The notes below the pieces were generated by a model that saw nothing but the letters and a program-made list of their open reading frames with translations, did no database searches and had not been told where the DNA came from. The translations under genes and the position numbers were made by a program. Of a stretch of DNA of 64,000 bases, positions 20,409 through 63,428 are shown one piece after another. This stretch comes from Aphrocallistes beatrix (lineage: Eukaryota; Porifera; Hexactinellida; Sceptrulophora; Aphrocallistidae). How positions within the stretch are numbered: position 1 is the first letter of the stretch; every line of letters begins with the position of its first letter. The stretch is taken from the NCBI GenBank assembly GCA_963281255.1, contig OY725493.1, positions 4,495,857 through 4,559,856 of the forward strand, written 5' to 3'.

Positions 20409-21395
20409 ATGGTTAGGTTCTTCACGGCTACTCCCAACAGAATTCGCGTGTTCGACCTGAAGTCAGGGTTGTTCAGAGGAGACAACGACACATACATCCC
20501 TGTCTACCAGTTCGATGCACCCGAATCGATCAGCGCAATGGCTGTCTCCACCAGGACACACGGTGCCATTCCCGCCTTTGCACTCACCTACCAAGGTGTG
20601 CCTGGAGTGGATATTGTGAGTGTGAGGGGTTCGAAGGAAGATGAGTTGGTGGTGGAGAAGCGGCTGTTTGCCGCCACTCCCTCTAGAATGGACGTGTGCA
20701 CGTGTCTCTTATGGAACACAGACTCGGACATACTCGTGTTTGGTGACGATCAAGGTTACATCCACCTGTGCCACATAACCACAGGACGAGACATATCCCA
20801 ACTGAAAATGGGGCTGAAACCCGTTCGGGAGGTCCGGATGCTGTCTCTCAGCTGTTACATCTCCTGTGATGGGAGTGAGAGTGTGTCACTATGGGACCTT
20901 CGCGACAGGACCACCATCATGGGCACACTCAAAGTGCCACCCACCCGCTTCAGTCGATTCACCGCTCGTCCAGTGATGGGTATGAATGTGTCCGGATGTC
21001 TGGCTGTGTGTGCTGACGTGGAGGGTAGGGCGACAGTGTGGGACACACGCAACACCACCAAGCCACTCTCAACACATTTCGGTGAGATACACTCTGAGCC
21101 ACATCCTAGCCGCTCCAGTACTGCATCGACTGGTGCGTGTCTGGCGGGGAATTTCGTGTGTTTGGGTGTACGAAACTCTACGCTGTCCCTCTACCACCGT
21201 GAGTCCACCTACCCCGTATGCTACCACAGGTTGGGAAAGGGCGCAGCTGCAGGTACAACTATTGGACGGCTGGAATACTCAACTGATGCGAAGCGAGTGA
21301 TTGCAGCTGATTCATGTGGGAATGTCGGTCTATTAACGATTCAGATAGAGGTGCCAGATGGATTGACACTCCCCTCAGATTGTTACGGCACCTGA
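20409..21395 (+). CDS. WD40-like beta-propeller protein, copy A
   Basis: 328 residues beginning MVRFFTATPNRIRVFDLKSG. WD-type blade ends are visible (SVSLWDLRDRTT, ATVWDTRNTTKP, LVFGDDQGYIHLCHI, NVGLLTIQ), so a single six- or seven-bladed propeller is likely, probably a protein-interaction scaffold. I do not recognise the family. The frame stays open upstream of ATG 20409 (about 40 codons back) without another ATG, and this part is conserved in copy B, but the shared MVRFF start is preferred. The C-terminus differs from copy B: PDGLTLPSDCYGT and stop. Confidence 0.75.
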   Translation: MVRFFTATPNRIRVFDLKSGLFRGDNDTYIPVYQFDAPESISAMAVSTRTHGAIPAFALTYQGVPGVDIVSVRGSKEDELVVEKRLFAATPSRMDVCTCLLWNTDSDILVFGDDQGYIHLCHITTGRDISQLKMGLKPVREVRMLSLSCYISCDGSESVSLWDLRDRTTIMGTLKVPPTRFSRFTARPVMGMNVSGCLAVCADVEGRATVWDTRNTTKPLSTHFGEIHSEPHPSRSSTASTGACLAGNFVCLGVRNSTLSLYHRESTYPVCYHRLGKGAAAGTTIGRLEYSTDAKRVIAADSCGNVGLLTIQIEVPDGLTLPSDCYGT

Positions 21396-21791: not shown

Positions 21792-22132
21792 AGGTACAAC
21801 TATTGGACGGCTGGAATACTCAACTGATGCGAAGCGAGTGATTGCAGCTGATTCATGTGGGAATGTCGGTCTATTAACGATTCAGATAGAGGTGCCAGAT
21901 GGATTGACACTCCCCTCAGATTGTTACGGCACCTGAAGTTTTATATGGAAAGAAAGCTTTCAGAGGACCTGAGAGGTCTGCGGGAAGTGTCAATTCACCT
22001 GGTACCTCTGTCTGAATCGTCAATAGACCGACATTCCCACATGAATCAGCTGCAATCACTCGCTTCGCATCAGTTGAGTATTCCAGCCGTCCAATAGTTG
22101 TACCTGCAGCTGCGCCCTTTCCCAACCTGTGG
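21792..22132. repeat. Right contig edge, identical to 21251-21591
   Basis: Second copy of the overlap. It contains the tail of copy A (ending at position 21936 in these coordinates) and the tail of copy B (stop 21916-21918), so each contig holds the whole central spacer. Confidence 0.95.
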
Positions 22133-22947
22133 TAGCATACGGGGTAGGTGGACTCACGGTGGTAGAGGGACAGCGTAGAGTTTCGTACACCCAAACACAC
22201 GAAATTCCCCGCCAGACACACACCAGTCGATGCAGTACTGGAGCGGCTAGGATGTGGCTCAGAGTGTATCTCACCGAAATGTGTTGAGAGTGGCTTGGTG
22301 GTGTTGCGTGTGTCCCACACTGTCGCCCTACCCTCCACGTCAGCACACACAGCCAGACATCCGGACACATTCATACCCATCACTGGACGAGCGGTGAATC
22401 GACTGAAGCGGGTGGGTGGCACTTTGAGTGTGCCCATGATGGTGGTCCTGTCGCGAAGGTCCCATAGTGACACACTCTCACTCCCATCACAGGAGATGTA
22501 ACAGCTGAGAGACAGCATCCGGACCTCCCGAACGGGTTTCAGCCCCATTTTCAGTTGGGATATGTCTCGTCCTGTGGTTATGTGGCACAGGTGGATGTAA
22601 CCTTGATCGTCACCAAACACGAGTATGTCCGAGTCTGTGTTCCATAAGAGACACGTGCACACGTCCATTCTAGAGGGAGTGGCGGCAAACAGCCGCTTCT
22701 CCACCACCAACTCATCTTCCTTCGAACCCCTCACACTCACAATATCCACTCCAGGCACACCTTGGTAGGTGAGTGCAAAGGCGGGAATGGCACCGTGTGT
22801 CCTGGTGGAGACAGCCATTGCGCTGATCGATTCGGGTGCATCGAACTGGTAGACAGGGATGTATGTGTCGTTGTCTCCTCTGAACAACCCTGACTTCAGG
22901 TCGAACACGCGAATTCTGTTGGGAGTAGCCGTGAAGAACCTAACCAT
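21916..22947 (-). CDS. WD40-like beta-propeller protein, copy B
   Basis: 343 residues from the MVRFF start on the minus strand; a longer reading from ATG 23115 (399 residues) would include sequence that in copy A is non-coding or lacks an ATG, so 22947 is preferred. It is virtually identical to copy A until GLLTIQ, then diverges to TEVPGELTLPADLSGPLKAF..TSGAVTI and stops. Its last codons are antisense to the last codons of copy A: in the left contig its stop is at 21375-21377 while copy A stops at 21393-21395, a tail-to-tail overlap of about 21 bp. Function unknown. Confidence 0.75.
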   Translation of the reverse strand: MVRFFTATPNRIRVFDLKSGLFRGDNDTYIPVYQFDAPESISAMAVSTRTHGAIPAFALTYQGVPGVDIVSVRGSKEDELVVEKRLFAATPSRMDVCTCLLWNTDSDILVFGDDQGYIHLCHITTGRDISQLKMGLKPVREVRMLSLSCYISCDGSESVSLWDLRDRTTIMGTLKVPPTRFSRFTARPVMGMNVSGCLAVCADVEGRATVWDTRNTTKPLSTHFGEIHSEPHPSRSSTASTGVCLAGNFVCLGVRNSTLSLYHRESTYPVCYHRLGKGAAAGTTIGRLEYSTDAKRVIAADSCGNVGLLTIQTEVPGELTLPADLSGPLKAFFPYKTSGAVTI

Positions 22948-23252
22948 GTCAGACTGGTGTGACGTAGGACACCATCCGACAGAGGATGTGGTGTGGGAGG
23001 GGGCAGTTGGGAGGAGATGGGAGGATAGAACAGTCTTGTTCAGAATGATAAATCGTCGGTATAGCCTCTCTTCCAAGTAAACACTTCCCCCTTTCCCTCT
23101 AAAATTATGGACCATCTCTTTGAGATTACTCTCCAGACCATCCTAAAATTAATAAACCTAGTAATGGTATATTGCAAATTGCAGGATCGTTTATACAAGC
23201 AGCGCATAAGAGCACCTTAGGCATATTCATTATCTATGATTAATTAATACAA

Positions 23253-46209: not shown

Positions 46210-47793
46210 TTACTTTTTATTGCTAGCAAAAAGTTGTGCCAAATGCGAGTTGACCTTCAGTTTATTATCTTTCCTTAACTCCTCTATTTCGAGCAATCGA
46301 GTGATAGAGAGACTGGTACCTTTGTCTCTAGGGGACCCGACCTGCATAAAACTCCCGTTCACTCCCGTAACTAGGTCGACAGGGAAACGACTTTGTGTTT
46401 CTGCATTTGCCTGGTGCTTGATGGCAAATCCCAAACCTTTCATATCTTCATTATCGCGACTTTTAGCACCGGATATCCATTCATTTAAAGGCATTTCAAG
46501 TTGTTTTGATAATACAAAGTTACCAGTTCCTCCATTTTCAGCTTCACTTTCCGCTTTTAAGTTCTCTCTCACCTTTTCTATTGTGTTTTTATTATTGACG
46601 AATAAGACAATTGAAGGGTGATTTTTGCTATAAATCGAATAGCCTGAATGATCTTGTTCATGGAATGGGTTGATTAGCCCTATTACGAGGTTGGAATGTG
46701 TGCGAGTAGCCTCGTTGTAATATTCCGTCAGCTCAGAACTCGACTTCCACTGTCCAGACGCAACCTCGTATTTATTCTTATCGCAATCCCATCTTTTATC
46801 TGCGTCTGCGTTCAGTATTACGAACACGTCTTCACCTAAACTCAGCTCTAGGCCCTTTCCAGCTTCACTAATTAAGTCATAACCTTGCTCCAGCTTATCA
46901 ATATTGTGGCGAATAGCACCATCAGTCATTGGAGGAGAAGCCATCTTGACAGATTGGCGAAGTTTGTCAAACAGGAGTTGTGCATACTTCAGACTGTCAA
47001 GAGTAGCGATATTTGGAGATATCGAGATGTAGTAATCAGCTAGCTTGCATTTCCCACCTGTCCCACTCAGGATGTGGTACATCGGGAGTGGTAAGGTGAA
47101 GTCTGATTGGGGAGGAGGAGTATCTCCTAAATTTAGCATTGAAATTACTTTGTAGAGGGGAAGTTGGGTTGAGTTAGAGAGACCGGATATCAGAGACTGC
47201 GACACAGCTAACATGAGGCTCGGTTTGAACCGTTCGATGGAGCATTCTGATAAACTATCCAGGCATTCTTCTATGTTACTCAATTGCTTTCCTTCTAAAA
47301 GCGTATTGATCTGTTGAGTCATGTCATCAGTAGAGAGCTTTTCTTTGCTGACTAAGGGAACATTTGCATCGAGTGAGTTAGGAGATTGTTCCATAGGCTC
47401 GCCAGCAGTAATCGCAGATTTCGATGTTGTCAAATTTGTTTTGAGATTTTCTTCAGTTGTATCATCTCGACTGAAATTCTCAGAGACAGTCGATTCTGCT
47501 ATCATCTCACACTCTCCTTTAATCTTCGCGAAAAGTGACACCTTAGTGGCTGGATCACAATTTGCATCAATGGTATGATCCACCTCGAAGTGGTGGATTG
47601 AAGGTGCCAACGCAAGAGAAGTTAAGGCACGTGCCATATACCCATTAACATCATCAGGTTTATCGATGATCATCTGATTGAGAAGTGTCTGCATTGTTTG
47701 GGCCACTTTTTGTTCATTGATATAGTTCATTGCATCGAGGCCCTGTTCCTTGCGCTCTTTTGCACGTCTGTTTACCTCACATTTGTCGCTCAT
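46210..47793 (-). CDS. ENO4: Enolase 4-like protein (sperm flagellar, probable pseudoenzyme)
   Basis: 527 residues, single exon. The N-terminal ~60 residues (GLDAMNYINEQKV..MQTLLNQMIIDKPDDVNGYMA, quoted in parts) form the DPY30/RII-like docking segment that distinguishes ENO4. The C-terminal half follows the enolase barrel: LGEDVFVILNADADKRWD, then NKYEVASGQWKSSSELTEYY, GLINPFHEQD, and a terminal LLEIEEL helix. In active enolases these places read 'aLDvAaSEf', 'sIEDPfd' and 'KvNQiGt'. Here the Asp and Glu metal ligands are Asn and Ile, and the catalytic Lys is Phe (FVNNKNT), so 2-phosphoglycerate turnover is unlikely. In mammals ENO4 acts in the sperm principal piece. Human ENO4 is longer (about 628). 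The gene is divergent from DNHD1. Confidence 0.82.
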   Translation of the reverse strand: MSDKCEVNRRAKERKEQGLDAMNYINEQKVAQTMQTLLNQMIIDKPDDVNGYMARALTSLALAPSIHHFEVDHTIDANCDPATKVSLFAKIKGECEMIAESTVSENFSRDDTTEENLKTNLTTSKSAITAGEPMEQSPNSLDANVPLVSKEKLSTDDMTQQINTLLEGKQLSNIEECLDSLSECSIERFKPSLMLAVSQSLISGLSNSTQLPLYKVISMLNLGDTPPPQSDFTLPLPMYHILSGTGGKCKLADYYISISPNIATLDSLKYAQLLFDKLRQSVKMASPPMTDGAIRHNIDKLEQGYDLISEAGKGLELSLGEDVFVILNADADKRWDCDKNKYEVASGQWKSSSELTEYYNEATRTHSNLVIGLINPFHEQDHSGYSIYSKNHPSIVLFVNNKNTIEKVRENLKAESEAENGGTGNFVLSKQLEMPLNEWISGAKSRDNEDMKGLGFAIKHQANAETQSRFPVDLVTGVNGSFMQVGSPRDKGTSLSITRLLEIEELRKDNKLKVNSHLAQLFASNKK

Positions 47794-48329: not shown

Positions 48330-51300
48330 ATGGACGCCCGACACTGGTGGTTGGTCAATCGAGTCCAAGAAACCTTCCAGTTCGGCACTAACGACAGCCC
48401 GCTCCTCTACGAGCAGTTTCTCTCGGATGTCTCCCACATGCGAGAGATCAACAAATTCCTCTCGGCGGAGGACTCCAGGCTGCTCATCTTCTATGACGCT
48501 TTCTCCCAGGACTCTCCCACCTCACGAGAACTGTACGTCATCACGGAGCTGTTACCTTCCTCTCCAGTCTATCGGGACTCCAATGTCGCCGTGGTTTTCT
48601 TCCGGCCAGAGGTGGTGACCGAAGAGTTGGACTTGGCTACTCTAAAACAGGATGTAATGTGCCTTGAACTGAACCTCACCAACCTCAATGCTATGATAGC
48701 CTTGATCTCTGAATTGTATCTGCCTATGGTTGATCAAGAAGCAAAGATGCATCCAAATATCCCGTCAGAGAGAGTAGATGTTTACAGGAAGGAACTCAAT
48801 GGGCGTATGGCTGAGTTGAATTCTCAACTGCAGAAGACAGAGCCACAAATCAATATTCTGGCTTCCCAGCATCTGAATTTGCTGAGAGATCCTCAGTGGA
48901 AGAACTCTACTCTTCTTCAAGACATCTGCACTACCACTCTTCAAGACTGGCTCTCTACCATTCACTCACACCTGACTGATATAATCGACACTCCTTATAT
49001 GGACACAGAAAAGCTTAGCTCCCCTCTGGAAGAATTACGGAAGTGGACAGCGAGGCAGAAGCTATTCCTCTCTATTCTCAAGCAAATGCGTGGGTCAGAA
49101 GCAACGACTACAGTCAAGATAGCTTCTGCTGTCAAACCGGAGTTGGCGAATGCATGGTCGCGAATAGAAGCACAAGTCATCCTCGCTAATCACGTTGTGA
49201 AGAATAAACTTTCTTTTCTCAATTATTTCAACAAATTCTTCTCACCAATCTTGAGTGACTGCTCATCTGTCAAATGTTTGAATACCAAACTGACTGAACT
49301 TAACTCCGATCGGGATTACCTGACTAATTTTAAACTCCCAACTCAGCCCGGGTATATGGGCTACATCTACTACAAGCTAGTCTGCGAAGTCATTAGAATT
49401 TCCACCGGATTTTTACAAGTCGAGTATGTAAAATTTACTGGGCAAGCGAATTCAAATTCTTGGTTCTTCTTGAACACCAAGGATAAGTATCCTGGATTCT
49501 ATCTGATAATAGACGAGATTCTACGAATGGAAGAATATTTGATACATCATTTTGGATTATTGGAAGAAAGAGATCTCTTCCGAAAGGTTTCTTCTCCTTC
49601 AGTGAAAAGGGAATCAGGTTCTCTCCATGACTTCGCGACCAATCCAGTTGAAGACCAAGAGGCTTTTCTTGAATTCTCCAGCAAAGATACGCTACTATCT
49701 CCTCTCATTTCATTCACTAAGCACCTCCGATTATTGAACACTCTAGCCGATGGCATTCATAAACTGAGTTTGCTCTCCAACCAACTTGTGAGCTACCATT
49801 CTTCCACAGGTGTCGAGTGGATCAACAACCCCATCGTCCTGGCCACAGAAGATGGTGGGACTGAACCAACCCTGGAATTGGATCCCGAGTACATTCAAGA
49901 GAGTCCCTCTCTTAGTTCGAGGAAGAAAAGACCGATCGGCTCTGGTAAGATGGGTACGTTGCTGGAAGTAGATGAGGATACTCCGCAGACAATCTCCCTC
50001 CCTTCTCCACTTGATTCTCCCTCGGGTGGATCTAGTGAAAGCTCTCTCACAGACGCCAATAACTCGATTCGAATTTATTCAAATTTTTCACGACAAATTC
50101 AAACTTGGTTGAATGAGAATCTACAGTTTGCTAATGATAACTTCGCTGAAGGATGGAAATTCCTATTCGAACCTACTCAATCTCAATACGATTTATTCAA
50201 TGAATTGTTGAATCAAATTAGAGAGTCTTTTGAAATACTGAACTTGAATATCGGAGCAATGTTCGATGAGATCACTGATTCTCAATTCTGTTTGATAGAA
50301 CAACTGAAATTGGTTCACATATTCAGTGGATGGGCAGATACAGAGAAAGCGGATCAGTTTAGGAAGCGTTACGTCACTAGCGCTTTCACTCAATTTGAAG
50401 ACAAAATGATTTCGCTTGAAAAAAAGTTTCTTGAGCACAAAACTATACCTTGCAGGCTAATTGATATATCGAGTGTTTCTGAGTCCATTCGGTGGTCCAG
50501 GCTACTTCTAGGCAAACTGGAAGAACCAATGCGAGAGTTATCGAAATATGAATCAATATTGAAGAATCCAGAGAATTTTGAGAATTTTAAAAAGTACGAG
50601 ACTTTCCGATCTGATTTAAGACAATATGAGAAAGTTTGGTTCAAATTTAGTTTGGACGCCGTTAAAGAGATCTCTAAACAACAACAGAACAAGTTGCTCC
50701 TACTCCCTCAAGAGGGTGAGCTTATTCTGATCAATCTCAATCCGATCATATTTGCAGCTATCCGTGAACTGAAGTCTCTCACAAAACTAGGAATCAACCT
50801 TCCTCCGAAAACCACAGAATTGATTTTCAACGAACAACGTTTGAAACGAAGTTTCGACACTCTAACTCAACTTAAATATGACTTTACTAAGATTTATTCA
50901 AAACTTCCAGAGCATCTAATTTCACTGTATGAGCCTAACGTCAAGCTCTTCTTGAAGTCGTTGCAGCATGGGTGGACACATCTTACTTGGAACAGTATTA
51001 ATCTGGACATTTTCTTTGAAGGAGCTAGCAGGGAACTGAGCAAATTGAGAACCTCCGTATTAGAAGTATTAGACGATATAACCCAAGCGGAGAAGGCTTT
51101 TCAAACAAATATGCAGTCTCTACCTACACTTCTATCCAGTGTAGTCACCACTGAATCTAGTCTAACCATCGACCAATACCAATCTCTAATTACGAGCTTC
51201 ATATCCACTGCCAAATCAAGACTCGATAATACAATGCAATCCTTTCATTCCGTCATTTGCAGATCGTTTCTGAAGATACGGGATTGCTATGCAGAGTATG

Positions 51301-54300
51301 AGAGTCATTCGAAACACGAACTATTCGAAATATTCAATCTAAAATTAGACGACACTTCTCTACTCTTCGTAGGGTTGAAGTATTTTCTTCAACATTATGT
51401 TTACTGGTCTCAAGATATCGTTGCTAACTGGATCACGTCCCAATTTAAGCAGTTTTCAAGTATTATTCCTTCCAGCTTATGTCACCCTCATCAGCTAGAC
51501 AAACTAGAGAAAGTTCTATCTGATCTTCACATCGAACCGACGAGTCCCTCTCTACCGATTCTTCATAAATTCATCACAGCCTCAGATTTTAACAAATTTG
51601 TGAAGCTATTTACTAAGAATAAACTTCGTATATCTTGTGAGTTTATATATGAAGTGCCCTTTGTCATCTCTGCACCTTCATATGAATCTATTTCCGAGAT
51701 AGTTCTTACATGTTTTGACCAGCTAGTTTCTCTCTCATCTCTTACAAACACTCGACTCCTAGTTGAATCTGAGAAGATCTCACTCATCAATGCGAAACTA
51801 TGTCAAGATGCTAATTGCTTTAGATCTGAAATTGAATCTCGATTGATGGAGTTGAGCTTACCGTTACGTCACCTCTTCAACTTTTTCCAGAATTTTAACT
51901 CCATCTGGCGTGGAGAGCTCCACCAGTCGTATGAACAAGTTCGCACGCACTCAGACTATTTGCACCTCTCTGCCAATATTGTTCACTCACTCTTTGATAT
52001 TTTGGTTTATTTGCGTGCAATGCCATCTAACTTCAACATAGGAATACTCAAGGTTTCCCTAGCTCCTATTCAAATGTCGCTGTGCACCCTTATCGAATTG
52101 TGGAAAAATAAATTCAGTGCGTTTTTATTGGATAGTTTTGAGACCATGCTGAATAATGCGATAGAAGAAAGAGAGAAGTTTTATACACTTTTAGACAAGA
52201 AAGTTGAGGATATTTCTGATCTCGATACCGTATTGAAGAATCTACGTTATGTTTTTAACCTAGAATTTTCCATAGAAAGTACCTTCTACCAGATTGATAG
52301 TAGTTACCAATTACTGGATTCCTATGAAGTTTCAATTAAGAGAGCTTATCTCGATGAAGTGAATGCTCTACGGACAAATTGGCAATCAATCCTAACCCTC
52401 GCGCATGATCTACAAGAGCACTACTTGGAAAAGAACAAACTGATGTATGAACGCGATATTGAGAAGGCAGTCAAGAGTTTCCAAATCCAAACGATTCAAC
52501 TTTCTAACGAGTTTGACGCAAAAGGGCCATACGTTCCAGGCATTGATCCTAAAACGGCCATGTCTCGGCTAAATACTTTTTCCGAAAAATTTCAAGAATT
52601 TTTTGAGAAAAAGGAGCTCTTATCCTCTCTGCAAAGCACCTATTTTATGCCAATATCGACGTACTCTGACCTGGATAGAGTAGGAGATGAAATTGAAATT
52701 TTGAAACAGCTGTATGCACTTTATGAAAACTTTTGTAATTTTGAGAAGGAGATCCAATCTCAAGCTTGGTCGCATATACAGTTCGATCAATGCCAGAAAC
52801 AGGTCCTGCAATTTAACGAAACTTTCTTGCTACTAAATCCTTCTCTCTGTAAGTGGGAAGCCTACCAGAATATCCATGGTAAAATCAATTTTTCCTTGGA
52901 AGTGATACCTATTTTGAAAAAACTTCAAGACCCAACCATTAAAAATAGACATTGGCTCCAGTTAATGGCACTTGAATCCAAGAGTTTACCTGTGAACTAT
53001 CAAATAGTGACGCTTGATAAGATCCTTCAACTCAATCCAGTACAGAACGCCTCTAGTATTAATGAGATTTGCAAGAAGGCATCTGAAGAATTTGAAGTCG
53101 AGAAAAAGTTGAACACAATATCGTTCGAATGGTCAGATCAAGTGTTCACATTAATTTATGCACAAGAAGGCATTCCTTATGTGTGTTTAGATTCAATTTC
53201 AAAATTGCATCAACTTTTAAATAATCACTATGTCATACTCACACTTATTCTCAACTCCCCTTCTATAAGTCATTTTCTGGACATAGGAAGAAAGCTTTCT
53301 GCGCAGGTCAAGTCGATTGAGCAGTTCTTGAACAATTTGACATACTCGCAAACTTTAGCTTTCCAACTAGAAAATGTTTTCTTGAATAAAGGTGATTTCT
53401 CTGATTCAGCGATATTTGATGATTCTCAAATACATTTCGTAACAGCCTTCAACAAATGGAAGAAGTTTTTGAAAAAGATAGACCAGAATAGCATTGTATC
53501 CTGCAGTTGTGTGGATGATCAGCTCTCCGACCAACTTCTGAGTATTATAAAGGAATTCGAGACTTGTAAATTTTCACTTGATGAATTCATAGATGTGCTA
53601 CGTACTTCCTTTCCTTTCCTTTATTTCCTCTCGGACAATGATATACTAGATATGCTGAAGGATCATTCAAACCCTGATGCCCTCGTGCCTCATATCAAGC
53701 AATTTTTCCCTGAACTTTCTAGGTTTATCTATAAAACGAAATCGCGAAAAAGTAGTATTAGCTCAGCTAAATCTGAAAAATCTGAAACGGTTACCAAATA
53801 CATTGGCGGATTTATTTCTACGATTGGCGAAGAAATTGACTTTGAGAGATGGATCCCTATTTGTAGAGATTCTTACCACACTCTTAACGAGGTAATCTTA
53901 GAAACTCGGAACACATTACAAGTCAAATTTTCTGACCTTTTGAGAGAGAGTAAAATGAAGAAGGTTCCCAACGCAGAGTATGAATTATTCATCATTGAAT
54001 GGCAGTCAATTCCACTGCAAGTAGCTAGCGTGTACCTACATTCGATTTGGACTAAAAATGTAGAAGAAGCTATCATAAATTTTCGTTCTCACAAAAATGC
54101 CCTAACAGAAGCTACTAAAATATTCATTGGTTACGTCCATCGTCTACAGGAACTGGTTACTAATCCACATGCGACCAGATCATCTTCCTATCTTCGTAAC
54201 AAGCTCGAATACATCGTGTTTTTTGCGCTATGGCTAAAAGATATAAATGACGAGTTAGCCGACCGTAAACTAAGAGATATATCTGACTTCGAATGGCAGA

Positions 54301-57300
54301 AATTTGTCAGAATGTATTACCATTGCACTCCCTTGCTGAATGATAAAAGTAGTGAAGTAGTGACTGCAAATTCCAATACTCCATACAATCTAACTCTGCG
54401 GTCCCTATTTACCGATATTCAATATGGGTTTGATTATGTCGGTCATTCGACGCCGAATATATTCTTTTCATCATCAACTAGAACTGTACACCTCATATAC
54501 TTAGCCATACTAGAGCAGCGCCATGCTCAATTCAAAACTGATCTTCCATTCGAATTCATCCACTCTGCCAAAGAGTTCGCTCGCTTTCATGGTAAAAACC
54601 TGATGCATCTGCGTGTTCAGGAGAATTTGTCTCGGAAAGGGATGTCCTCCTATCTCCTAGGCACGCTTCTATCTGGGTACTGGGGGCTTGTCACTGGCTG
54701 GGATAACATGAGTGTAGAATGCCAATCTATCTTTACCTCGATAATTTCACAACTGCATGGACGCATTTTCCCATCTGATTCTGACCGAACATTTAGAAAA
54801 GACTCGAGTATACTTCTACTAACCTCTAACTTAGGTCACTTTCTAGCTCCTAATCTTCGACCCTATTTTAAATCCTGCAGTTATCTCGCTCCCAATGATC
54901 ACTACGTCTTAAGAACATATTGCCATGCTCGAGGCATTAAATCTCCAAAGCAGTTAGTGGACAAAATGCTTTGGTTGAGGGACATTTTGCCTTCTCTCTA
55001 CCCAGAAACTTCCCACGTTAAATTCACCATCCCTTTCTTTATTTCACTTTTGAAGCAATGTTCCGCTGACAAGATTAAGGCCAAGAGTTTAAGTCGCAGC
55101 TCCTCTGTTTGTGAGTATGATGTTAGACAGAGTCATTCAAGAAGAGTCAACTTCAAAAATCTAAAACAACTTCCACAACCTCGAAGTACAGTCGGAAACC
55201 TTTTCAATCTTCAATCCAGAGACTTTTCAAGCACTCCTGTCGCTCTTAAAGACCAAACTATAATCGCATCATACTTAATTGACACATGTCTACCAAGATT
55301 TCAGGTTGAAATCCGCCCAAAATTCTTAGCTCTCCTCGACCAAGTATTTGGAACATCTTTCTCTACCAATTTATCAGACAGTCTCATTATACCAAATTTC
55401 AACACTATTTTCATTCGTGTCTGCAATGACTTGGAGATAATTCCTTCCAACACGCTTGAACAACAGATCAAGGATATCCACCGAGCGGCTAACATGTTTC
55501 CTGGAGTAATCCTCTATGGTTTGCCTGGGACTGGCAAAAGTACAGCATTTAAGGTCTTTATAAATTACCTGCGGAATATTACAGGTGACATCACTAATGA
55601 TAACATAGCAAGGTTTAAACAGCATAAAATGTACCACATCTACCCACGTACTCTCTACTCCTCAAGATCTCTTATTGGAAGAGAAGACGAGAGGTTGAGA
55701 TGGAGAGATGGGGTTATCCCTCAAGCCATAATGCACGCCCACAAAGATCCTAACTGTCTTGTTTGGATCATTTTTGATGACGAAATAATAGAGCCACAAT
55801 TTTTCGAATTTCTATCGACTTGTATATTTGCTGGTTCGCTCGCTCTTAGCAATGGTGATAATTTGTCCATTACAAACAATGTTCGATTTGTCTTTGAAAC
55901 TTTATGCCTAAAATCGTTCTCCCTATCTTTGCTCAATTTGTTTCAAATGATATATTTTTCTAAATACAGTATAACATTGAGTTCTTTCACAAGTATTTCT
56001 ATTCAAAAGCACCCTCCAATGCTCCATAAAGTTATCAAACAGGTATTATTGAATACGATTGAAACTTTTCTAAAGGATCATTTAGTTAAATATCCGAACG
56101 TTAATGAGCTTAATATGATTGGTCTCTACAAAACATTTTTTAATTATTTCGACCAACTTATCGATAATTGCACTTCGCTACCTATCCAGTCTGAACCGGA
56201 CAACACTTGTGTAATCGAGCGTTTCGCTTTATTCGCACTTACCTGGTCGTTTGGCATACACGTGGAGGAAACAAAGTGGTCTAGTTTCACACAAGATCTG
56301 TATTCACTCAGCGATTCCCTGCCCGATTTGGAGCCAGGATACACTATCTATGACTACATAATCAGCAGTTCAGGAGACTGGGACACAGTGCAGATGTTGC
56401 ATTCTGACTCTCCAATCCCTTACTCCATCACATGTGATGGAGATATCATGGCGCAATGCGCGAATTTTTCCAAAGTAAACATGTTGATAGAACTCACCTC
56501 TTCAAAGAGGCCAATAATGCTCATTGGTCCTCATTCCACTGGTAAATCTTCCCTCATGAAGTTTAACCTATACTCGAATGTATATCAAGACTTAACACAA
56601 GATGTGTCACATGAAGCTATCAACGCTAACACCACAATATCATCACTCTATGACTCCCTGTATCTGCGATTGGAATGTCGATTCCTTGACACATACGGGC
56701 CACCTAACAGCCATAAGTTGAATTTATTCATAGACGATTTACACATTGGTCAATCTGAAAAAGATGGGAATTCTCCTATACTAGAATTTATTCGCTGCCT
56801 GTTAGAACAAAAAGGTTTGTTTTCAAAAGAGTTTCCGACCAAATGGTTGACAATTGAAGATGTTCACACGGTCTGTGCAATGACGACATATCGTTCCTAT
56901 ACCTGGATGGAATCCAGATTGTCCCAACACTTCAACGTCATTCGACTGGTGCCTGAGGCAATCACTCAAGACACTCTATCTAACCTGCTTGACGCCTTTA
57001 CACAGCCTGAGGGGATGACGAGATATTCACCAGATGTGCTGGGTACAATCACTAACACTGCACGAACACTCTTTCAATATATACAATCCATATTTATACC
57101 TACCATTCTCCCAGGAAGGCATCATTACTCTTTCTCACTCAAAGATCTTTCTCTCATCTTTCATGGTTTTAGAGTTTGTGCCGACGAGTTGCTCGAAAGA
57201 GAGAGTGAAGTCTTCAATTTGTTTTATCATAATGCGAACAGAGTATTTTCTGCTCAGTTTTCGAATTTATCTGACTTGGAGAGTTTTAGAACTTTGGTTA

Positions 57301-60300
57301 AGAAACTTTTTGATTTTGACATGGCGAATTCTGAATTTATTTCTTGTAAAACTGAATTCAAAGACTTACCCTATTTCACAACTCTTGTTGAAGAACAAAA
57401 GCCAAGCACAGCGAATGTTCTCAAACATGCCATTGAATTAAACACTAACATCATTATTCATTCATGTCCAGTGTTGGAAAACCTGGTTGCCTCTGGTACC
57501 CGGCTCCATAATCAGCATAATGAAAAGTATTCAGACAGACCATGCACCTCAATGCTTGCTCTCTCAGACATCAAACAGCTAGACTATCTCAACTTTATTC
57601 TCAGTTTGCCAAGAAGCAACGTCCTATTTATAGGAAGTAATAAAAAGAAATTATTTGACATAGCAAAGCTGGCTTATTTCGCATCTGGATTCGAGCATTT
57701 GGATTTGGCCCTTTCAAATGAACAGTCCTTTATTGACGGAATCAAGGCGGCCATCAGACAGGCCGTACTCGGGTCTAAATCGGTTGGATTCATTCTTACA
57801 GACAATCAGCTGGAAATCGGTTGTGTGAAGGAACTGTTCAACACCTACCTGGTAACAGGACATCTTGACCATGTATTTTCCTACGATGAACTCAACAGTC
57901 TTGTGAATTCGGTTGAGCCAATTTACAAACGCTCTTATGCTAGTACTTACACTGACCCGCGCCAATATTTCAATGTCCAAATACAGAAGAACCTCAAAGT
58001 CATACTATGTATCGGGATTCACAATCCTCTGCTGAAGGATTCTGCGGGGTTTCCTGGTCTCATTAAAGGTTGTTACGTATCAGTTTACAGGGATTGGTGT
58101 GGTACATCTGTAAATAAAGATATAATTGAGTTAGTTAGCCGATCTGAATCTAAAATGCCCATTACCACAATCTATTCAGACTTTCCCATTTCGGAAATCT
58201 TAGACATTTCCACTAGTCTTCATAATATGTTTCTCCAAGAGGATCGAGAACTTTATTTTCTTGAGCATCCATCTAACTTCAGTAATAATTCTATTGAAAT
58301 ACTCGATTCGATTAATGTGAAAAGTCCCCAACCAAAGCCAAATGCTCCCAATACACTGTCTCAGCTATTTTTTGAAGAGAATGTAAAATTTGCTCAAAAT
58401 AGCGGCAAGTTTAAAAAAAGTAGAATGTATTTCAGTGGATCTTCTCTACAGACTTTTATAAAACTTATTTTTACTATTTACATTAATGAAGCAAAAAATA
58501 CCGACCGGAAATTGAAGGGATTAAAAAAGTGTATTGAAACCCGTGATAAAATGCAAAAGATGTACAATAATTTGCTTGAAGAAATTTCACGTATTGAGAG
58601 TTGTATAAACGAGAAAAACAGTGAATGTGAGAGTTTGTTACAAGAACTTAGTCAAGTTAGCTGTAAAATCGAAGCTGTGAAAGTTTTCTCTTCACATTCC
58701 GAGTATAGCATTCTCAGAGCTACTCTCGACTCGTTACGAAGTCAGGACGAAACGGATGTGGAAATGCTAGACTTTGAAGATGATAAGCAACTAATAATAC
58801 AACTACTTGAAAATGAAACTCATCTGAAACAGGAAAGTATTGACAAACTGACTCAAGTTCAATACGAACGTATTGATGTACTAAAAGTAAAGCAAAAAGA
58901 TCTTTTGAAACTGATAGAAGAGGCTGAAGCTGAGGTGAAATCAAGTTTCTGTAAAATTACCCGTTTTACTGTAGAGCATGTGAAGACTCTACATTTCCCA
59001 CCCAAGCATGTCCTTACAGTGCTGGAGACTTTGGTGTACATTCTAAGAAAGCAAATTAGAACTGCGTCAATTGTTTTACCGAAACCGGATGTATCACTTC
59101 TCGATTCCTCAGTGGAAATTTGCCACACACAAGATGCCCAAATGCTTCCGATACAGCCCAAAGGACGTCAACACCTCGGTAGGTCAGGCTATCTTTCATC
59201 CACGCGTGGCAACCCTGATGCATGGAATGCAGTCCAACAGGCGATTGGCCAGGATTCCCAGAAGTTTTTGGACTCAATATCCAGTATGAGTTGGAAATTT
59301 GGGCTAGACCCAGATGTTATCCATTGTATTGAAAAGAGTATTGCGACTTCTAGAAATTCTCAGAATCCCAAAACAGTTTCAGCCTTGATTACAGTACAAT
59401 CTGCCAAACATGCAGCAGATGGTGTAGGAATAATATGTGCATACATCATAGCACTTACAGAATACAGTTATGTTTACAAACAGCATTGCGTGTTAGAAGA
59501 TGAAATCTATAAACTTCATCAAGGCATTGATAAGTTGAATCAGCAATTAATTTCCTCGGATATCAAACTGCCAGTGCTTAAGTATGAGAGGAGTTATCTG
59601 AATCAGGAACAGATTGATGAATATCAGACTGATGCATTGGAGGTAGAAATCAAAGAGCTTGAAGAAAGATTTCATAAGGCCGTTTTTGAACAACATGAAC
59701 TTAAACAGGAGTTTAGCAAGCTAAAGACTTTTGCTAAATCTCTGTCTGATATCTTGCAATCTACAGAAGCTCTTGAAAATTCATGGAATACATCTCTGGA
59801 ATCGCTTTTCGATAAAGAAATTATGATTTACTACAGCATCGCTACCTCAATTTTACTCACCTATTTAGGTTCGATTCCTCCTAAGTTAAGAAAATCTCTT
59901 TTTGTCCATTCTTTTAACAAAATGTCTGCCAACCTTGATGAAGAAAAGCAGTCCCTTTTGTCCTATGAATCTTTCAGAGATTTCTTAAGACAGACTATCA
60001 ATTGGAACCTTGACTTGACTAAAATTCCCAATGATTACTATGTTGAAGAGAATTTTTGTATTATCTTGAATCCTTACTTACCTAAATATCCACTTATTGT
60101 CGATCCTTACAGCATTTTCCTATGTTGGATGAAGGACCAGGACGATGTAACCTCTATCAGCTATGATTCCAATGATCTACTTCAAATTCTTGAGACACAG
60201 TCAAAACAAGCTAAAAAGTTTGTGATATACGATGTTAACGTTAATGATTTGAGTTCTAAAGAATTCATCATGAAGATCCTAAAATTCAAGTCAGCCAATT

Positions 60301-63300
60301 CTTGTTTTACGATCAAATCAACTATCCCAGTTAAAGACATTACAAACTCATCCTTTCAATTATTTTTAGTCACCTCTCTCAATCAGGACATCCCCTATAA
60401 ACTGTTACCCTATGTTACACCTGTACTGTTTACAGCGACAAGACAAGGGTTCTCAAAAGATCTTGGCAGAGTGTGTCTGTCTGTTTTTGAGTCTGAAAGG
60501 TTTGTAGAAATGCGGAAAAATGAAGAAAAACTCGCATCTTCTCGGGCAACTATTAAATCAGTGGAGAATGAGCTTACCACTGCCCTGTGCATGTCTTTCG
60601 AGATTGAGAATTTGGTTTCTAAGTGCAAAACGATCACTTCCCTTAGCGCCACTTACCAAGCCAATATGGAACTATATCAATCATCCAAAAAGCAACAACA
60701 AATCATTTTGTTAACAAATTCGAGTATCTTTGATGGTGGAGAAATTGCTGCAATCGTTTTTGATATTTTGCGATGTTTATCTTCTCTCGATATTTCTTAC
60801 CAAATCTGTTATGCCAATTTCAAGCAATTTTTGAAGGGAATCAGTAAAGGATTAGAAAGAGTAGACCCCAAGAAAATCCCGCAGATCATTCTCCACATGA
60901 GCTACAGCTACCTCAGTAGATCTCTCTCTGAAGATAATCGAGTTCATTTTGCCTTGATGCTCGCACTCGAGTACGAGATATATGAGAAGCGTGCGAAGAG
61001 GAGTGAAGCTGAAATGCTGTTCTCACCTCTAACACAAGTTAAACAATCTTCCAAGAAACCGTTCGATTGGATGCAAGAGAGACAATGGGACAACTTGAAC
61101 GCTATGGGCCAATCTGTGAGGACGATACAGGAAGTAGTAGACAGGATGGCTCGTGACGGCCGTGCGACTCAATGGCGGACATTCTGTGAGCACGATTCCC
61201 CAGAGGAGCAAGAATTCCCTGATGGGTTGAGTAGCACACTTTCTCCTTTAGAAAGGCTATTAATTCTAAAATGCGTGAAACAGGACACCCTCAAGAACTC
61301 TATCATGAAATTCATAGAGCAGAGCTTGGGTCTAGATCTAAACCGTGGAATGACGCTTGACTACAAGGTGCTAGTCAACATCGCAACGCCTCGCACACCC
61401 ATCTTAGTTCTATCCAATCATCCAAGCAACATAACGCTGTTTACGCACAACCTTATAAAGCATTGCAATCCAAAAATTGAGATGCGCTGTTTGAATGGTG
61501 ATTCATCGGAAGATATTAGTGATATATTCGATGCCATTAATAATGCTGCTAGTCAAGGAAACTGGGTTTTTATACAGAACATCGATTTAAATCCTTCTCT
61601 AATGAAACTACTAACGATCTATTTGGACAGCATTACAAATTGCGATGAATCTTTTCGTTTGTGGCTCTCGTCGTATCCAACTGCTACCTTTGATTTAGTA
61701 TTCATGCATCGCTGCATTCGCTTATGTTTGGGAATCCCCTTTGAGCCAAAGAACGGAGCAATCCGCTGTCTAGAGATCCTCCACTATAATGAATCTCTTA
61801 TCAACATAGCGAAGTCAGAATGGACGCCTCTATTACATAGCCTCATCATGATCCATCTCACATGCCGGTATCGTGCCATGTTATATCCGGGAAGCTGGGC
61901 TCAGTCTTACCGTTGGAGTATCGACTCGTTGACCAGAAGTTTGAAACTAGTTTTGTTGGAAATTGAACAGTGCTCTAACACAATGTTAACTTTTAGCCAG
62001 CAAAACAAGCCATTCTCCTGGTGCTGTGTTAAGTATATGATCGGTGAGTTGACGTATGGCAGTGGGCTCGAGTTGACACTAGACCAGGAGTTGTTGAATG
62101 GACTAATTGAGTTTTGGTTGAATCCGAATGCCATTAAACCTGGTTACGAATTTCCTCGTTGTCAATACAAAGCTCCTACCGTTTTCCATAGAACTAGCCC
62201 TAAACCGAAAGACTTGATTCAAGGTTTCTTAAATGAAACTAGTCAGGTGATTATCAATTCGCCTGAAATATGTGGTTTCTATAACAAAATATTATCTTCT
62301 TTTCACGACAAGATTGTCGATCAGACTAAGATATTGAATGATACGCTGAAGGTATTTCGTCCAGAAGTTGACGAACTTGTTTGCATAGTGAAAGAACCCA
62401 GACCACCAGTCCATATCCCTCTTCGCAGACGCCAATCAAGCATTGCAGATACTGCAAAACGTATTGCTTCTCTAGTTCGAGTAGTAGATAAATCTCCTTC
62501 ATCTTTCACGATTATGCCTACATCAATAACGACCCCTTCTCCCTTTAGCGTTACTCCTCTCCGCGGAATCAAGGAGTTAGATATCCAGGCGAAATGTTCA
62601 CTACTGCTGGCCAACCTCCCACAGATTGTATCTGTCAACCATCTGATCACTATATGTGAACAGGACGCAAATCAATTCTTAAAGAACTTCTATATTCAAG
62701 AACTGAAAGCTTGGGTGAAATGTTTTCAGGTACTTCGATGCGATATTTTCAATATACAGCAATACCTTGTTTTCTCCAAACGTGTTGGCGTATTACCAAC
62801 ATTGTTAGAAATGATCAAAGATATTAATGACAACAAAATTCCTTCGAAATGGCAGACTGCAGTTGGCCCATCTGCTCCGCCTCAGTCACAAACATTTTCG
62901 GTTTGGATTGAGCACATTATGAAGCGATACATCTATCTTCATGACTTGATAGAAAATGGAAATCCTTCTAGCTACAATTTAGGATACGTTTTCTATCCTG
63001 GATTGCTACTCGCATCTTTCTGCCTTTTGAAGCCAAAGCATGACAATTTAAACTTTGAGAAAAGTTGTCTAATCGGTGAAATCACCTCGAAAGAGAAGGA
63101 GCATGTGAGAGACCCTCCTTCAGAGGGTGTATACGCCTCCGAAATTTGTGTTAATGGCTGTCTCTGGGAGAAAAGTACTGGAGATTTTTATGACAGTCCA
63201 AGCAAATCTAACAATACTATTCTTCCACTGGTCCAGATAACTCGTTTTCCTGCTGGCCAACTTCACTTGCGAAAAGAAAGCATCCGAGGTCCTCACTTGT

Positions 63301-63428
63301 ATTTCTGTCCTGTCTACAGGAATCAAGATAAGAAAGAGGTCTTCTTTCACCTCAAAATCCAGCATAACGATATCCCACGAATCCGATGGATGACGAGAGG
63401 TCTGACATGTACATTACAACATTATTAG
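48330..63428 (+). CDS. DNHD1: Dynein heavy chain domain-containing protein 1-like (degenerate dynein)
   Basis: 5032 residues in one 15.1-kb exon. N-terminal tail and linker run to about 2000. AAA1 begins near 2030 (QYGFDYVGHSTPNIFF), but where GPAGTGKT belongs there is nothing comparable; the Walker B 'CFDEFNR' is GWDNMS (about 2119) and sensor 'ITMNPGYAGR' is LLTSNLGHFLA. AAA2 keeps GLPGTGKST (about 2397) and IIFDDE. AAA3 keeps GPHSTGKSS (about 2732) and LFIDDLHI. AAA4 is degenerate (FIGSNKKKLFD, about 3100). Stalk coiled coils flank a microtubule-binding region (about 3390-3820). AAA5 has INWNLDLTKIPNDYYVEEN..PLIVDP and AAA6 FRLWLSSYP and VKYMIGELTYGS. The C-terminal cap YFCPVY is present. 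Human DNHD1 (about 4,750 residues) is the likely counterpart and is linked to sperm flagellum assembly. Confidence 0.85.
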   Translation: MDARHWWLVNRVQETFQFGTNDSPLLYEQFLSDVSHMREINKFLSAEDSRLLIFYDAFSQDSPTSRELYVITELLPSSPVYRDSNVAVVFFRPEVVTEELDLATLKQDVMCLELNLTNLNAMIALISELYLPMVDQEAKMHPNIPSERVDVYRKELNGRMAELNSQLQKTEPQINILASQHLNLLRDPQWKNSTLLQDICTTTLQDWLSTIHSHLTDIIDTPYMDTEKLSSPLEELRKWTARQKLFLSILKQMRGSEATTTVKIASAVKPELANAWSRIEAQVILANHVVKNKLSFLNYFNKFFSPILSDCSSVKCLNTKLTELNSDRDYLTNFKLPTQPGYMGYIYYKLVCEVIRISTGFLQVEYVKFTGQANSNSWFFLNTKDKYPGFYLIIDEILRMEEYLIHHFGLLEERDLFRKVSSPSVKRESGSLHDFATNPVEDQEAFLEFSSKDTLLSPLISFTKHLRLLNTLADGIHKLSLLSNQLVSYHSSTGVEWINNPIVLATEDGGTEPTLELDPEYIQESPSLSSRKKRPIGSGKMGTLLEVDEDTPQTISLPSPLDSPSGGSSESSLTDANNSIRIYSNFSRQIQTWLNENLQFANDNFAEGWKFLFEPTQSQYDLFNELLNQIRESFEILNLNIGAMFDEITDSQFCLIEQLKLVHIFSGWADTEKADQFRKRYVTSAFTQFEDKMISLEKKFLEHKTIPCRLIDISSVSESIRWSRLLLGKLEEPMRELSKYESILKNPENFENFKKYETFRSDLRQYEKVWFKFSLDAVKEISKQQQNKLLLLPQEGELILINLNPIIFAAIRELKSLTKLGINLPPKTTELIFNEQRLKRSFDTLTQLKYDFTKIYSKLPEHLISLYEPNVKLFLKSLQHGWTHLTWNSINLDIFFEGASRELSKLRTSVLEVLDDITQAEKAFQTNMQSLPTLLSSVVTTESSLTIDQYQSLITSFISTAKSRLDNTMQSFHSVICRSFLKIRDCYAEYESHSKHELFEIFNLKLDDTSLLFVGLKYFLQHYVYWSQDIVANWITSQFKQFSSIIPSSLCHPHQLDKLEKVLSDLHIEPTSPSLPILHKFITASDFNKFVKLFTKNKLRISCEFIYEVPFVISAPSYESISEIVLTCFDQLVSLSSLTNTRLLVESEKISLINAKLCQDANCFRSEIESRLMELSLPLRHLFNFFQNFNSIWRGELHQSYEQVRTHSDYLHLSANIVHSLFDILVYLRAMPSNFNIGILKVSLAPIQMSLCTLIELWKNKFSAFLLDSFETMLNNAIEEREKFYTLLDKKVEDISDLDTVLKNLRYVFNLEFSIESTFYQIDSSYQLLDSYEVSIKRAYLDEVNALRTNWQSILTLAHDLQEHYLEKNKLMYERDIEKAVKSFQIQTIQLSNEFDAKGPYVPGIDPKTAMSRLNTFSEKFQEFFEKKELLSSLQSTYFMPISTYSDLDRVGDEIEILKQLYALYENFCNFEKEIQSQAWSHIQFDQCQKQVLQFNETFLLLNPSLCKWEAYQNIHGKINFSLEVIPILKKLQDPTIKNRHWLQLMALESKSLPVNYQIVTLDKILQLNPVQNASSINEICKKASEEFEVEKKLNTISFEWSDQVFTLIYAQEGIPYVCLDSISKLHQLLNNHYVILTLILNSPSISHFLDIGRKLSAQVKSIEQFLNNLTYSQTLAFQLENVFLNKGDFSDSAIFDDSQIHFVTAFNKWKKFLKKIDQNSIVSCSCVDDQLSDQLLSIIKEFETCKFSLDEFIDVLRTSFPFLYFLSDNDILDMLKDHSNPDALVPHIKQFFPELSRFIYKTKSRKSSISSAKSEKSETVTKYIGGFISTIGEEIDFERWIPICRDSYHTLNEVILETRNTLQVKFSDLLRESKMKKVPNAEYELFIIEWQSIPLQVASVYLHSIWTKNVEEAIINFRSHKNALTEATKIFIGYVHRLQELVTNPHATRSSSYLRNKLEYIVFFALWLKDINDELADRKLRDISDFEWQKFVRMYYHCTPLLNDKSSEVVTANSNTPYNLTLRSLFTDIQYGFDYVGHSTPNIFFSSSTRTVHLIYLAILEQRHAQFKTDLPFEFIHSAKEFARFHGKNLMHLRVQENLSRKGMSSYLLGTLLSGYWGLVTGWDNMSVECQSIFTSIISQLHGRIFPSDSDRTFRKDSSILLLTSNLGHFLAPNLRPYFKSCSYLAPNDHYVLRTYCHARGIKSPKQLVDKMLWLRDILPSLYPETSHVKFTIPFFISLLKQCSADKIKAKSLSRSSSVCEYDVRQSHSRRVNFKNLKQLPQPRSTVGNLFNLQSRDFSSTPVALKDQTIIASYLIDTCLPRFQVEIRPKFLALLDQVFGTSFSTNLSDSLIIPNFNTIFIRVCNDLEIIPSNTLEQQIKDIHRAANMFPGVILYGLPGTGKSTAFKVFINYLRNITGDITNDNIARFKQHKMYHIYPRTLYSSRSLIGREDERLRWRDGVIPQAIMHAHKDPNCLVWIIFDDEIIEPQFFEFLSTCIFAGSLALSNGDNLSITNNVRFVFETLCLKSFSLSLLNLFQMIYFSKYSITLSSFTSISIQKHPPMLHKVIKQVLLNTIETFLKDHLVKYPNVNELNMIGLYKTFFNYFDQLIDNCTSLPIQSEPDNTCVIERFALFALTWSFGIHVEETKWSSFTQDLYSLSDSLPDLEPGYTIYDYIISSSGDWDTVQMLHSDSPIPYSITCDGDIMAQCANFSKVNMLIELTSSKRPIMLIGPHSTGKSSLMKFNLYSNVYQDLTQDVSHEAINANTTISSLYDSLYLRLECRFLDTYGPPNSHKLNLFIDDLHIGQSEKDGNSPILEFIRCLLEQKGLFSKEFPTKWLTIEDVHTVCAMTTYRSYTWMESRLSQHFNVIRLVPEAITQDTLSNLLDAFTQPEGMTRYSPDVLGTITNTARTLFQYIQSIFIPTILPGRHHYSFSLKDLSLIFHGFRVCADELLERESEVFNLFYHNANRVFSAQFSNLSDLESFRTLVKKLFDFDMANSEFISCKTEFKDLPYFTTLVEEQKPSTANVLKHAIELNTNIIIHSCPVLENLVASGTRLHNQHNEKYSDRPCTSMLALSDIKQLDYLNFILSLPRSNVLFIGSNKKKLFDIAKLAYFASGFEHLDLALSNEQSFIDGIKAAIRQAVLGSKSVGFILTDNQLEIGCVKELFNTYLVTGHLDHVFSYDELNSLVNSVEPIYKRSYASTYTDPRQYFNVQIQKNLKVILCIGIHNPLLKDSAGFPGLIKGCYVSVYRDWCGTSVNKDIIELVSRSESKMPITTIYSDFPISEILDISTSLHNMFLQEDRELYFLEHPSNFSNNSIEILDSINVKSPQPKPNAPNTLSQLFFEENVKFAQNSGKFKKSRMYFSGSSLQTFIKLIFTIYINEAKNTDRKLKGLKKCIETRDKMQKMYNNLLEEISRIESCINEKNSECESLLQELSQVSCKIEAVKVFSSHSEYSILRATLDSLRSQDETDVEMLDFEDDKQLIIQLLENETHLKQESIDKLTQVQYERIDVLKVKQKDLLKLIEEAEAEVKSSFCKITRFTVEHVKTLHFPPKHVLTVLETLVYILRKQIRTASIVLPKPDVSLLDSSVEICHTQDAQMLPIQPKGRQHLGRSGYLSSTRGNPDAWNAVQQAIGQDSQKFLDSISSMSWKFGLDPDVIHCIEKSIATSRNSQNPKTVSALITVQSAKHAADGVGIICAYIIALTEYSYVYKQHCVLEDEIYKLHQGIDKLNQQLISSDIKLPVLKYERSYLNQEQIDEYQTDALEVEIKELEERFHKAVFEQHELKQEFSKLKTFAKSLSDILQSTEALENSWNTSLESLFDKEIMIYYSIATSILLTYLGSIPPKLRKSLFVHSFNKMSANLDEEKQSLLSYESFRDFLRQTINWNLDLTKIPNDYYVEENFCIILNPYLPKYPLIVDPYSIFLCWMKDQDDVTSISYDSNDLLQILETQSKQAKKFVIYDVNVNDLSSKEFIMKILKFKSANSCFTIKSTIPVKDITNSSFQLFLVTSLNQDIPYKLLPYVTPVLFTATRQGFSKDLGRVCLSVFESERFVEMRKNEEKLASSRATIKSVENELTTALCMSFEIENLVSKCKTITSLSATYQANMELYQSSKKQQQIILLTNSSIFDGGEIAAIVFDILRCLSSLDISYQICYANFKQFLKGISKGLERVDPKKIPQIILHMSYSYLSRSLSEDNRVHFALMLALEYEIYEKRAKRSEAEMLFSPLTQVKQSSKKPFDWMQERQWDNLNAMGQSVRTIQEVVDRMARDGRATQWRTFCEHDSPEEQEFPDGLSSTLSPLERLLILKCVKQDTLKNSIMKFIEQSLGLDLNRGMTLDYKVLVNIATPRTPILVLSNHPSNITLFTHNLIKHCNPKIEMRCLNGDSSEDISDIFDAINNAASQGNWVFIQNIDLNPSLMKLLTIYLDSITNCDESFRLWLSSYPTATFDLVFMHRCIRLCLGIPFEPKNGAIRCLEILHYNESLINIAKSEWTPLLHSLIMIHLTCRYRAMLYPGSWAQSYRWSIDSLTRSLKLVLLEIEQCSNTMLTFSQQNKPFSWCCVKYMIGELTYGSGLELTLDQELLNGLIEFWLNPNAIKPGYEFPRCQYKAPTVFHRTSPKPKDLIQGFLNETSQVIINSPEICGFYNKILSSFHDKIVDQTKILNDTLKVFRPEVDELVCIVKEPRPPVHIPLRRRQSSIADTAKRIASLVRVVDKSPSSFTIMPTSITTPSPFSVTPLRGIKELDIQAKCSLLLANLPQIVSVNHLITICEQDANQFLKNFYIQELKAWVKCFQVLRCDIFNIQQYLVFSKRVGVLPTLLEMIKDINDNKIPSKWQTAVGPSAPPQSQTFSVWIEHIMKRYIYLHDLIENGNPSSYNLGYVFYPGLLLASFCLLKPKHDNLNFEKSCLIGEITSKEKEHVRDPPSEGVYASEICVNGCLWEKSTGDFYDSPSKSNNTILPLVQITRFPAGQLHLRKESIRGPHLYFCPVYRNQDKKEVFFHLKIQHNDIPRIRWMTRGLTCTLQHY

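Follow-up and report, generated by a model that had tools for sequence, protein, structure and literature searches.

A single-frame dynein heavy chain with lost AAA1 nucleotide motifs and a probable outer-arm gamma tail in Aphrocallistes beatrix

Excerpts from the literature on dynein mechanics describe a cycle in which binding of ATP at AAA1 makes the ring close and the linker bend and frees the microtubule-binding domain (MTBD), and in which an empty AAA1 goes with a straight linker and an attached MTBD (PMC4879348). Excerpts on DNHD1 term it an orphan heavy chain and a 'ghost gene' (PMC8754002), place it along the human sperm flagellum, where its loss leads to multiple morphological abnormalities of the flagella (MMAF; PMC9916431), and report MMAF in Dnhd1 knockout mice (PMC12558365) and fewer, shorter cilia with unimpaired motion in zebrafish dnhd1 morphants (PMC9749982). 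The evolution of outer arms is treated in PMC12338079, in the excerpts consulted, without mention of DNHD1. Here we describe a heavy chain, W, encoded at positions 48330 to 63428 (+) of a 64,000-nucleotide stretch of the Aphrocallistes beatrix genome (the window, C7:4495857-4559856, in an assembly of 100.5 Mb and 28 contigs), in which the nucleotide motifs of AAA1 are lost. The explanation that we consider best, and rate as fairly probable on the sequence, is that W is an AAA1-dead heavy chain of outer-arm gamma (DNAH5/8) ancestry that serves as a static structural element. The whole analysis is sequence-based and covers this one genome, whose other heavy-chain loci are referred to below as C6, C7b, C10 and so forth.

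The frame of W opens with an ATG at 48330 and its stop ends at 63428, exactly as given in an earlier note on this DNA. It comprises 5,032 codons with zero internal stops, for which the base composition of the window gives a chance of ~10^-137, and an in-frame TAG lies at 48306, 24 bases 5' of the ATG. Pfam searches with the protein in five pieces returned DHC_N1 (137 bits), DHC_N2 (203 bits), AAA_6 (44 bits), AAA_7 (96 bits) and AAA_8 (59 bits), followed in the C-terminal part by Dynein_heavy (54 bits), AAA_lid_11 (41 bits) and Dynein_C (95 bits); AAA_9, at 19 bits, fell under its cut-off. The linker, AAA row and C-terminal domain that define the dynein heavy chain superfamily are each present, and W is a complete dynein heavy chain in one frame. 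All of its features lie on the + strand. The tail (residues 1-1440; 48330..52649) consists of an N-terminal region and DHC_N1 bundles, and the DHC_N2 linker follows at residues 1449-1865 (52674..53924). AAA6 (Dynein_heavy), AAA_lid_11 and the Dynein_C domain occupy 61392..63413, and the C-terminal cap that the earlier note reported is indeed kept. That note also pointed to a single exon. We reject this as a special feature because giant frames are ordinary here: AAA1 lies inside an open frame of >4,000 aa at 5 of 17 heavy-chain loci.

To place the nucleotide sites of W among those of its paralogues, the 35 AAA_6 matches in the genome were grouped into 16 heavy-chain loci, to which the window adds a seventeenth. 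All 17 loci, 14 conventional and 3 AAA1-dead, were aligned, each motif being counted over the rows that have letters at it. The AAA1 P-loop is present in 14/14 conventional loci, spanning a join between exon pieces in C13, C15b and C17, and among the 13 conventional rows with letters at Walker B of AAA1, 12 read FDEFN and one (C15a) reads FDDFH. Both Walker motifs of AAA1 are lost at three loci, namely W, C7b and C10; W is not a lone case, and the other two were missed by the earlier note. In W, AAA1 can be followed from QYGFDYVGHS to the end of the AAA_6 match (54420..55088), whose best stretch begins only at profile position 48, past the P-loop; the reading of a traceable fold without Walker A is thereby borne out. 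TDLPFEFIH stands at the Walker A position (54537..54563) where conventional chains have GPAGTGKTE, and LVTGWD at the Walker B position (54687..54704) where they have CFDEFN, which confirms the reported loss of Walker B. The corresponding motifs are GKQGSGKIS and CFRCID in C7b, and GTHSADNSE and YLVNLD in C10. The sensor motif, described earlier as altered, is so in that TSN (54813-54830) replaces TMN, but its T and its sensor-I Asn are still present.

The other nucleotide sites of W differ among themselves, in line with what the earlier note had read from them. GxxxxGK[S/T] is kept in both AAA2 and AAA3 at all three AAA1-dead loci (3/3). In W, AAA2 has Walker A ILYGLPGTGKST (55509..55544) and Walker B IIFDDEI (55767..55787), and AAA3 has Walker A MLIGPHSTGKSS (56517..56552) and Walker B LFIDDLH (56724..56744). 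AAA4 is degenerate, with FIGSNKKKLF at its Walker A position (57627..57656). The arginine of AAA2 (TVSR/TISR), found in 8/8 conventional rows shown, is gone from W, C7b and C10; W reads LSLLNL, with LLNL at this site, against conventional PATVSR (55923..55940). This residue corresponds to the arginine finger that AAA2 supplies to the AAA1 site. At all three loci, the last near-invariant Arg of AAA3 is retained. GxxxxGK[S/T] occurs in W only at residues 2397 (AAA2) and 2733 (AAA3), and a scan of all three + frames from the end of the linker to AAA2 yielded no further P-loop. A hidden AAA1 P-loop, whether brought out by better placement in the frame of W or lying in another + frame, is therefore excluded by the scan. 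W lacks the AAA1 with complete catalytic residues that marks dynein motors and, judged by its sequence, the working AAA1 motor of the gamma class; on these motifs its AAA1 cannot be a normal ATPase.

Inspection of the domains as a whole reveals a less selective picture. W keeps 23/48 near-invariant residues at the linker end, 20/87 in AAA1, 14/40 in AAA2 and 7/14 in AAA3, and Fisher tests of AAA1 against AAA2 and AAA3 give p values of 0.20 and 0.05, respectively. The same tests give 0.85 and 1.0 for C7b, and 0.001 and 0.0001 for C10. That is to say, domain-wide loss in W is not special to AAA1, and the contrast sits in the nucleotide motifs. A weak AlphaFold2 model of W residues 2001-3010, computed with ten in-genome sequences (mean pLDDT 57.8, pTM 0.46), suggests at low confidence that AAA1 retains an alternating strand-helix core, in which the turn between strand 1 and helix 1 would measure 3 residues as against the 6-residue P-loop in AAA2.

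Assignment of W to a class was calibrated on the conventional heavy-chain genes of the same genome, which include DNAH5/8 and DNAH9/17 genes alongside the AAA1-dead loci. C6 is of DNAH5 type (2,039 bits), and the nine PDB sequences that we take as the gamma class (8j07_n0, 9fqr_I3, 7kzm_C, 9y6s_5X, 9e5c_7a, 7k58_A, 7k5b_A, 7kek_A and 6zyw_C) all match it at 1,062 bits or more, where the next sequence scores 836. C17, which shares a branch with C6 at 100/100 support, is a second DNAH5/8; C11a is of DNAH9/17 type (1,275 bits) and C2 of DNAH10 type (1,985 bits). These class labels derive from PDB molecule names together with score gaps, and some of the names look wrong: 9fqr_I3 is named CFAP57, yet it behaves as DNAH5-type. 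C1 is labelled DNAH2 by elimination, and C9 and C16 are labelled DYNC2H1 and DYNC1H1, respectively, by guess.

Against PDB, the tail of W (residues 1-1390, E 0.001) returned 11 matches, of which the first nine are the nine gamma sequences at 121 to 65 bits and the remaining two score 36 and 30 bits. Against the whole genome, self aside, the same tail found C6 in three colinear matches (51.5, 33.8 and 20.6 bits), then C1 (28 bits) and C17 (25 bits). The N-termini align from residue 2 of W, DARHWWL facing DGRHRYL of C6, and W thus carries the class-specific gamma tail. A motor-only PDB search was likewise headed by four gamma sequences (374, 363, 283 and 276 bits; next, 267). These results argue that W is probably not a classless orphan, its tail being of outer-arm gamma type. 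The earlier note had held that grouping inside a conventional axonemal clade would count against its reading; the tail does group with DNAH5/8, but the AAA1-AAA3 tree resolves nothing, and a tail grouping shows ancestry without giving back ATPase activity. A chimeric origin of W is ruled out, since a single frame runs through tail, linker and motor, and the same class heads the PDB matches of the tail alone and of the motor alone.

Of the two further AAA1-dead chains, C7b is a 4,836-aa frame that starts at C7:4684346 (+), 125,061 bases beyond the end of W. With its first 2,684 residues as query, the nine leading PDB matches are all beta chains by the C11a calibration (313 to 249 bits, ahead of 227 for the following match), and with its tail alone beta chains take the first four places (126, 103, 80 and 70 bits), as against 52 bits for DNAH5. 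On these scores C7b appears closest to the outer-arm beta class (DNAH9/17). Against that assignment, local phmmer matches are split among C6, C1 and C11a, and in the tree C7b falls with DNAH5/8, on an unsupported branch (36/0). In the last third of C7b, Pfam found no AAA6 and no C-terminal domain, and AAA_9 only under its cut-off. Two genes placed independently would lie as near to each other as W and C7b in roughly 1 case in 400 (2 x 125 kb out of the 100.5 Mb), by arithmetic done after the fact. A tandem origin of the two as duplicates of each other is ruled out, as both match conventional heavy chains better. C10, at about C10:3036176-3045640 (-), keeps the P-loops of AAA2 and AAA3, is matched by Pfam MT, and comprises two long frames separated by an apparent splice donor, CACAG|GTAACC. 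Five heavy chains used as queries found no tail in the 9.4 kb upstream, and C10 apparently lacks one; the gene upstream is presumably a septin, judged from its first residues. No single class leads the PDB ranking of C10. The heavy chain at C15a (C15:2915944-2916962, +) is divergent too, with a tree branch of 2.56 and CFDDFH for CFDEFN, but its AAA1 P-loop is intact.

In the explanation that we favour, W could not run an ATP-driven linker stroke because its AAA1 cannot bind ATP and close. Since an empty AAA1 goes with a straight linker and an attached MTBD in dynein mechanics, the ring of W would stay in an apo-like, nucleotide-free-like state with its linker straight, and the protein would act as a strut, not a motor. 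Nucleotide at AAA2 and AAA3 may then stabilise the ring or set its state, as a structural or regulatory ligand. The earlier note had proposed a structural or regulatory dynein-like scaffold that binds nucleotide in its other modules; the loss of the AAA1 motifs and the retention of those of AAA2 and AAA3 agree with this, but it missed the outer-arm ancestry. Most likely, W sits in, or helps to build, a ciliary or sperm axoneme, where it would be held by its outer-arm-type tail.

Gamma and beta heavy chains pair in conventional outer arms, and for this reason the likeliest partner of W would be C7b, the AAA1-dead beta-type chain 125 kb downstream; class affinities and linkage are what suggest this pairing. 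By extension, the genome might encode a motor-dead second outer arm beside the conventional ones, a static pseudo-arm of gamma-type W and beta-type C7b, one descended from each member of the conventional heterodimer, although we hold this to be doubtful. Its use in the axoneme would be to cross-link, to space, or to serve as a jig during assembly. W may be viewed as a natural separation-of-function mutant that exposes the roles of AAA2 and AAA3 when AAA1 is silent, and it raises the question of whether axonemes contain non-motor dyneins. In the portions of open-licence PMC papers searched, we found no heavy chain described as AAA1-dead and no outer-arm origin stated for one.

Several observations weigh against a gamma-derived structural chain. 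When the motor alone is searched against PDB, the gamma sequence 9e5c_7a ranks 13th, and 7kek_A, 6zyw_C, 7k58_A and 7k5b_A rank 38th to 42nd. Maximum-likelihood trees of AAA1-AAA3 are saturated and leave W unplaced, with end branches of 4.9 to 5.8 when all three AAA1-dead rows are included, and of 8.3 or 7.7 when W or C7b, respectively, is the only such row (the last two trees omit C15a, C4 and C13, plus two of the three AAA1-dead rows each time). The approximately unbiased (AU) test rejects none of the placements of W (DNAH5/8, p 0.31; DNAH9, p 0.11; DNAH2, p 0.13). By the class-unique residues of AAA1-AAA3, no class is clearly preferred; if anything, W would lean slightly toward DNAH9 (30/323, against 20/226 for DNAH5/8 and 4.5-7.8% for the other eight classes). 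Because neither trees nor class-unique residues give resolution, the class call rests on the tail and on the top of the PDB lists. For C7b, a whole-genome search with its tail found only C6, a DNAH5-type gene, at 20 bits, and not the DNAH9-type gene. It is ancestry only that points to an axonemal place for W. Finally, Pfam MT, the stalk/MTBD model, matches 15/17 heavy-chain loci (matches being assigned to loci by position) and was found in neither W nor C7b. The coiled coils of the W stalk and a putative MTBD core between them (58977..59444), with its PP motif, are alignable and carry insertions in both stalk and MTBD, but with Pfam MT missing W, the retained microtubule-binding region of the earlier note is unproven.

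The alternative that survives best is that W is orthologous to the known orphan heavy chain of vertebrates, DNHD1, to which it is likened by published descriptions only. This proposal, which we hold tentatively, concerns the name of the protein; it is compatible with an outer-arm ancestry and a dead AAA1, and our confidence in the two overlaps. In the excerpts available, DNHD1 is a full-size orphan heavy chain of 4,753 aa needed for sperm flagella (PMC8754002, PMC9916431), Dnah5 is called a Dnhd1 paralog and dnhd1 morphants show a ciliary phenotype (PMC9749982), the last two of which both fit W. W is possibly DNHD1 itself, but either C7b or C10 is just as good a candidate for the orthologue, and the portions of open-licence PMC papers searched yielded nothing on whether AAA1 of vertebrate DNHD1 is dead. 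The gamma-derived reading of W suggests, in turn, how orphan heavy chains like DNHD1 may originate, as outer-arm chains that gave up the motor.

Decay offers another account, in which W would be a decaying DNAH5/8 duplicate (a retrocopy or a ghost gene) that no longer has any function. The extreme divergence of W, at ~20% identity to its paralogues, its single exon and the 'ghost gene' proposal made for DNHD1 in an excerpt of PMC8754002 all fit such a history; we nevertheless consider it improbable, as the 5,032 codons are stop-free, the P-loops of AAA2 and AAA3 are exact despite that divergence, with the same pattern at all three AAA1-dead loci, and single-exon heavy chains are usual in this genome. 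Continued motor activity of W, with AAA3 (or AAA2) taking over from AAA1, is highly unlikely: AAA3 does keep its Walker A and LFIDD, and the linker end is among the best-kept parts, but AAA3 has DD, like 6/7 conventional rows with letters, and has gained no catalytic Glu.

Elsewhere in the window, open reading frames matched the models of KNTC1 (weakly, 39 bits), DNAAF5, ELP3 and enolase (36 bits). The KNTC1-like gene (2593-8010, +; 1,805 aa), itself a weak match, and the DNAAF5-like gene (9323-11881, +; 852 aa) are each a single long frame, which fits an intron-poor stretch. A divergent enolase-like frame (46210-47793, -) lies head to head with W and matches Enolase_C at only 36 bits; it resembles, we presume, the sperm enolase ENO4. 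An inverted pair of WD40 (CDC20/Fizzy-like) frames, at 20409-21395 (+) and 21916-23115 (-), shares 99.2% identity over 971 bp and represents a very recent duplication or gene conversion.

Dynein MTBDs also occur in this genome outside heavy chains. A 513-aa protein in C11:3528900-3530900 (positions 141-1682 therein, -) carries three in tandem (Pfam MT, 88.6 bits) and no motor, and further MT-bearing frames at C11:3525232-3525570 (-) and C15:3843187-3844833 (+) have one and three weaker MT matches, respectively. In a local comparison, these stand-alone MTBD proteins matched the heavy chains C3, C1, C10 and C11b; a literature search for stand-alone dynein MTBDs found nothing relevant. Clusters of long frames, many of ~3,000-3,900 codons and with one AAA_7-like P-loop match each, are present at C1:8130852-8447913, on C6 (0.55, 1.17 and 3.1 Mb) and on C19 (2.0-2.4 Mb), and one stretch that was examined scored 31 bits for AAA_7 and 30 bits for AAA; we regard them as a multigene family of giant AAA proteins. 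On the mitochondrial contig C28, COX1 contains 11 in-frame TGA codons, and AGA appears to encode Ser, a combination that matches the mitochondrial code of bilaterian invertebrates.

Set against the described classes, W shares with DNAH5/DNAH8 its tail type and colinearity, the N-terminal motif, DHC_N1, the domain order and a weak DYH2-5-8_CC match. DNAH5/DNAH8 differ in their intact AAA1 catalytic site and AAA4 Walker A, and W departs from them in its missing Pfam MT match, its low identity and its stalk/MTBD insertions. C7b resembles DNAH9/DNAH17 in its first nine PDB matches and in the first four of its tail, and is unlike them in AAA1 (GKQGSGKI / CFRC) and in an AAA6 and C-terminal domain unseen by Pfam. 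DNHD1, compared by description only, is like W a full-size orphan heavy chain, and one that has been implicated in building flagella and cilia.
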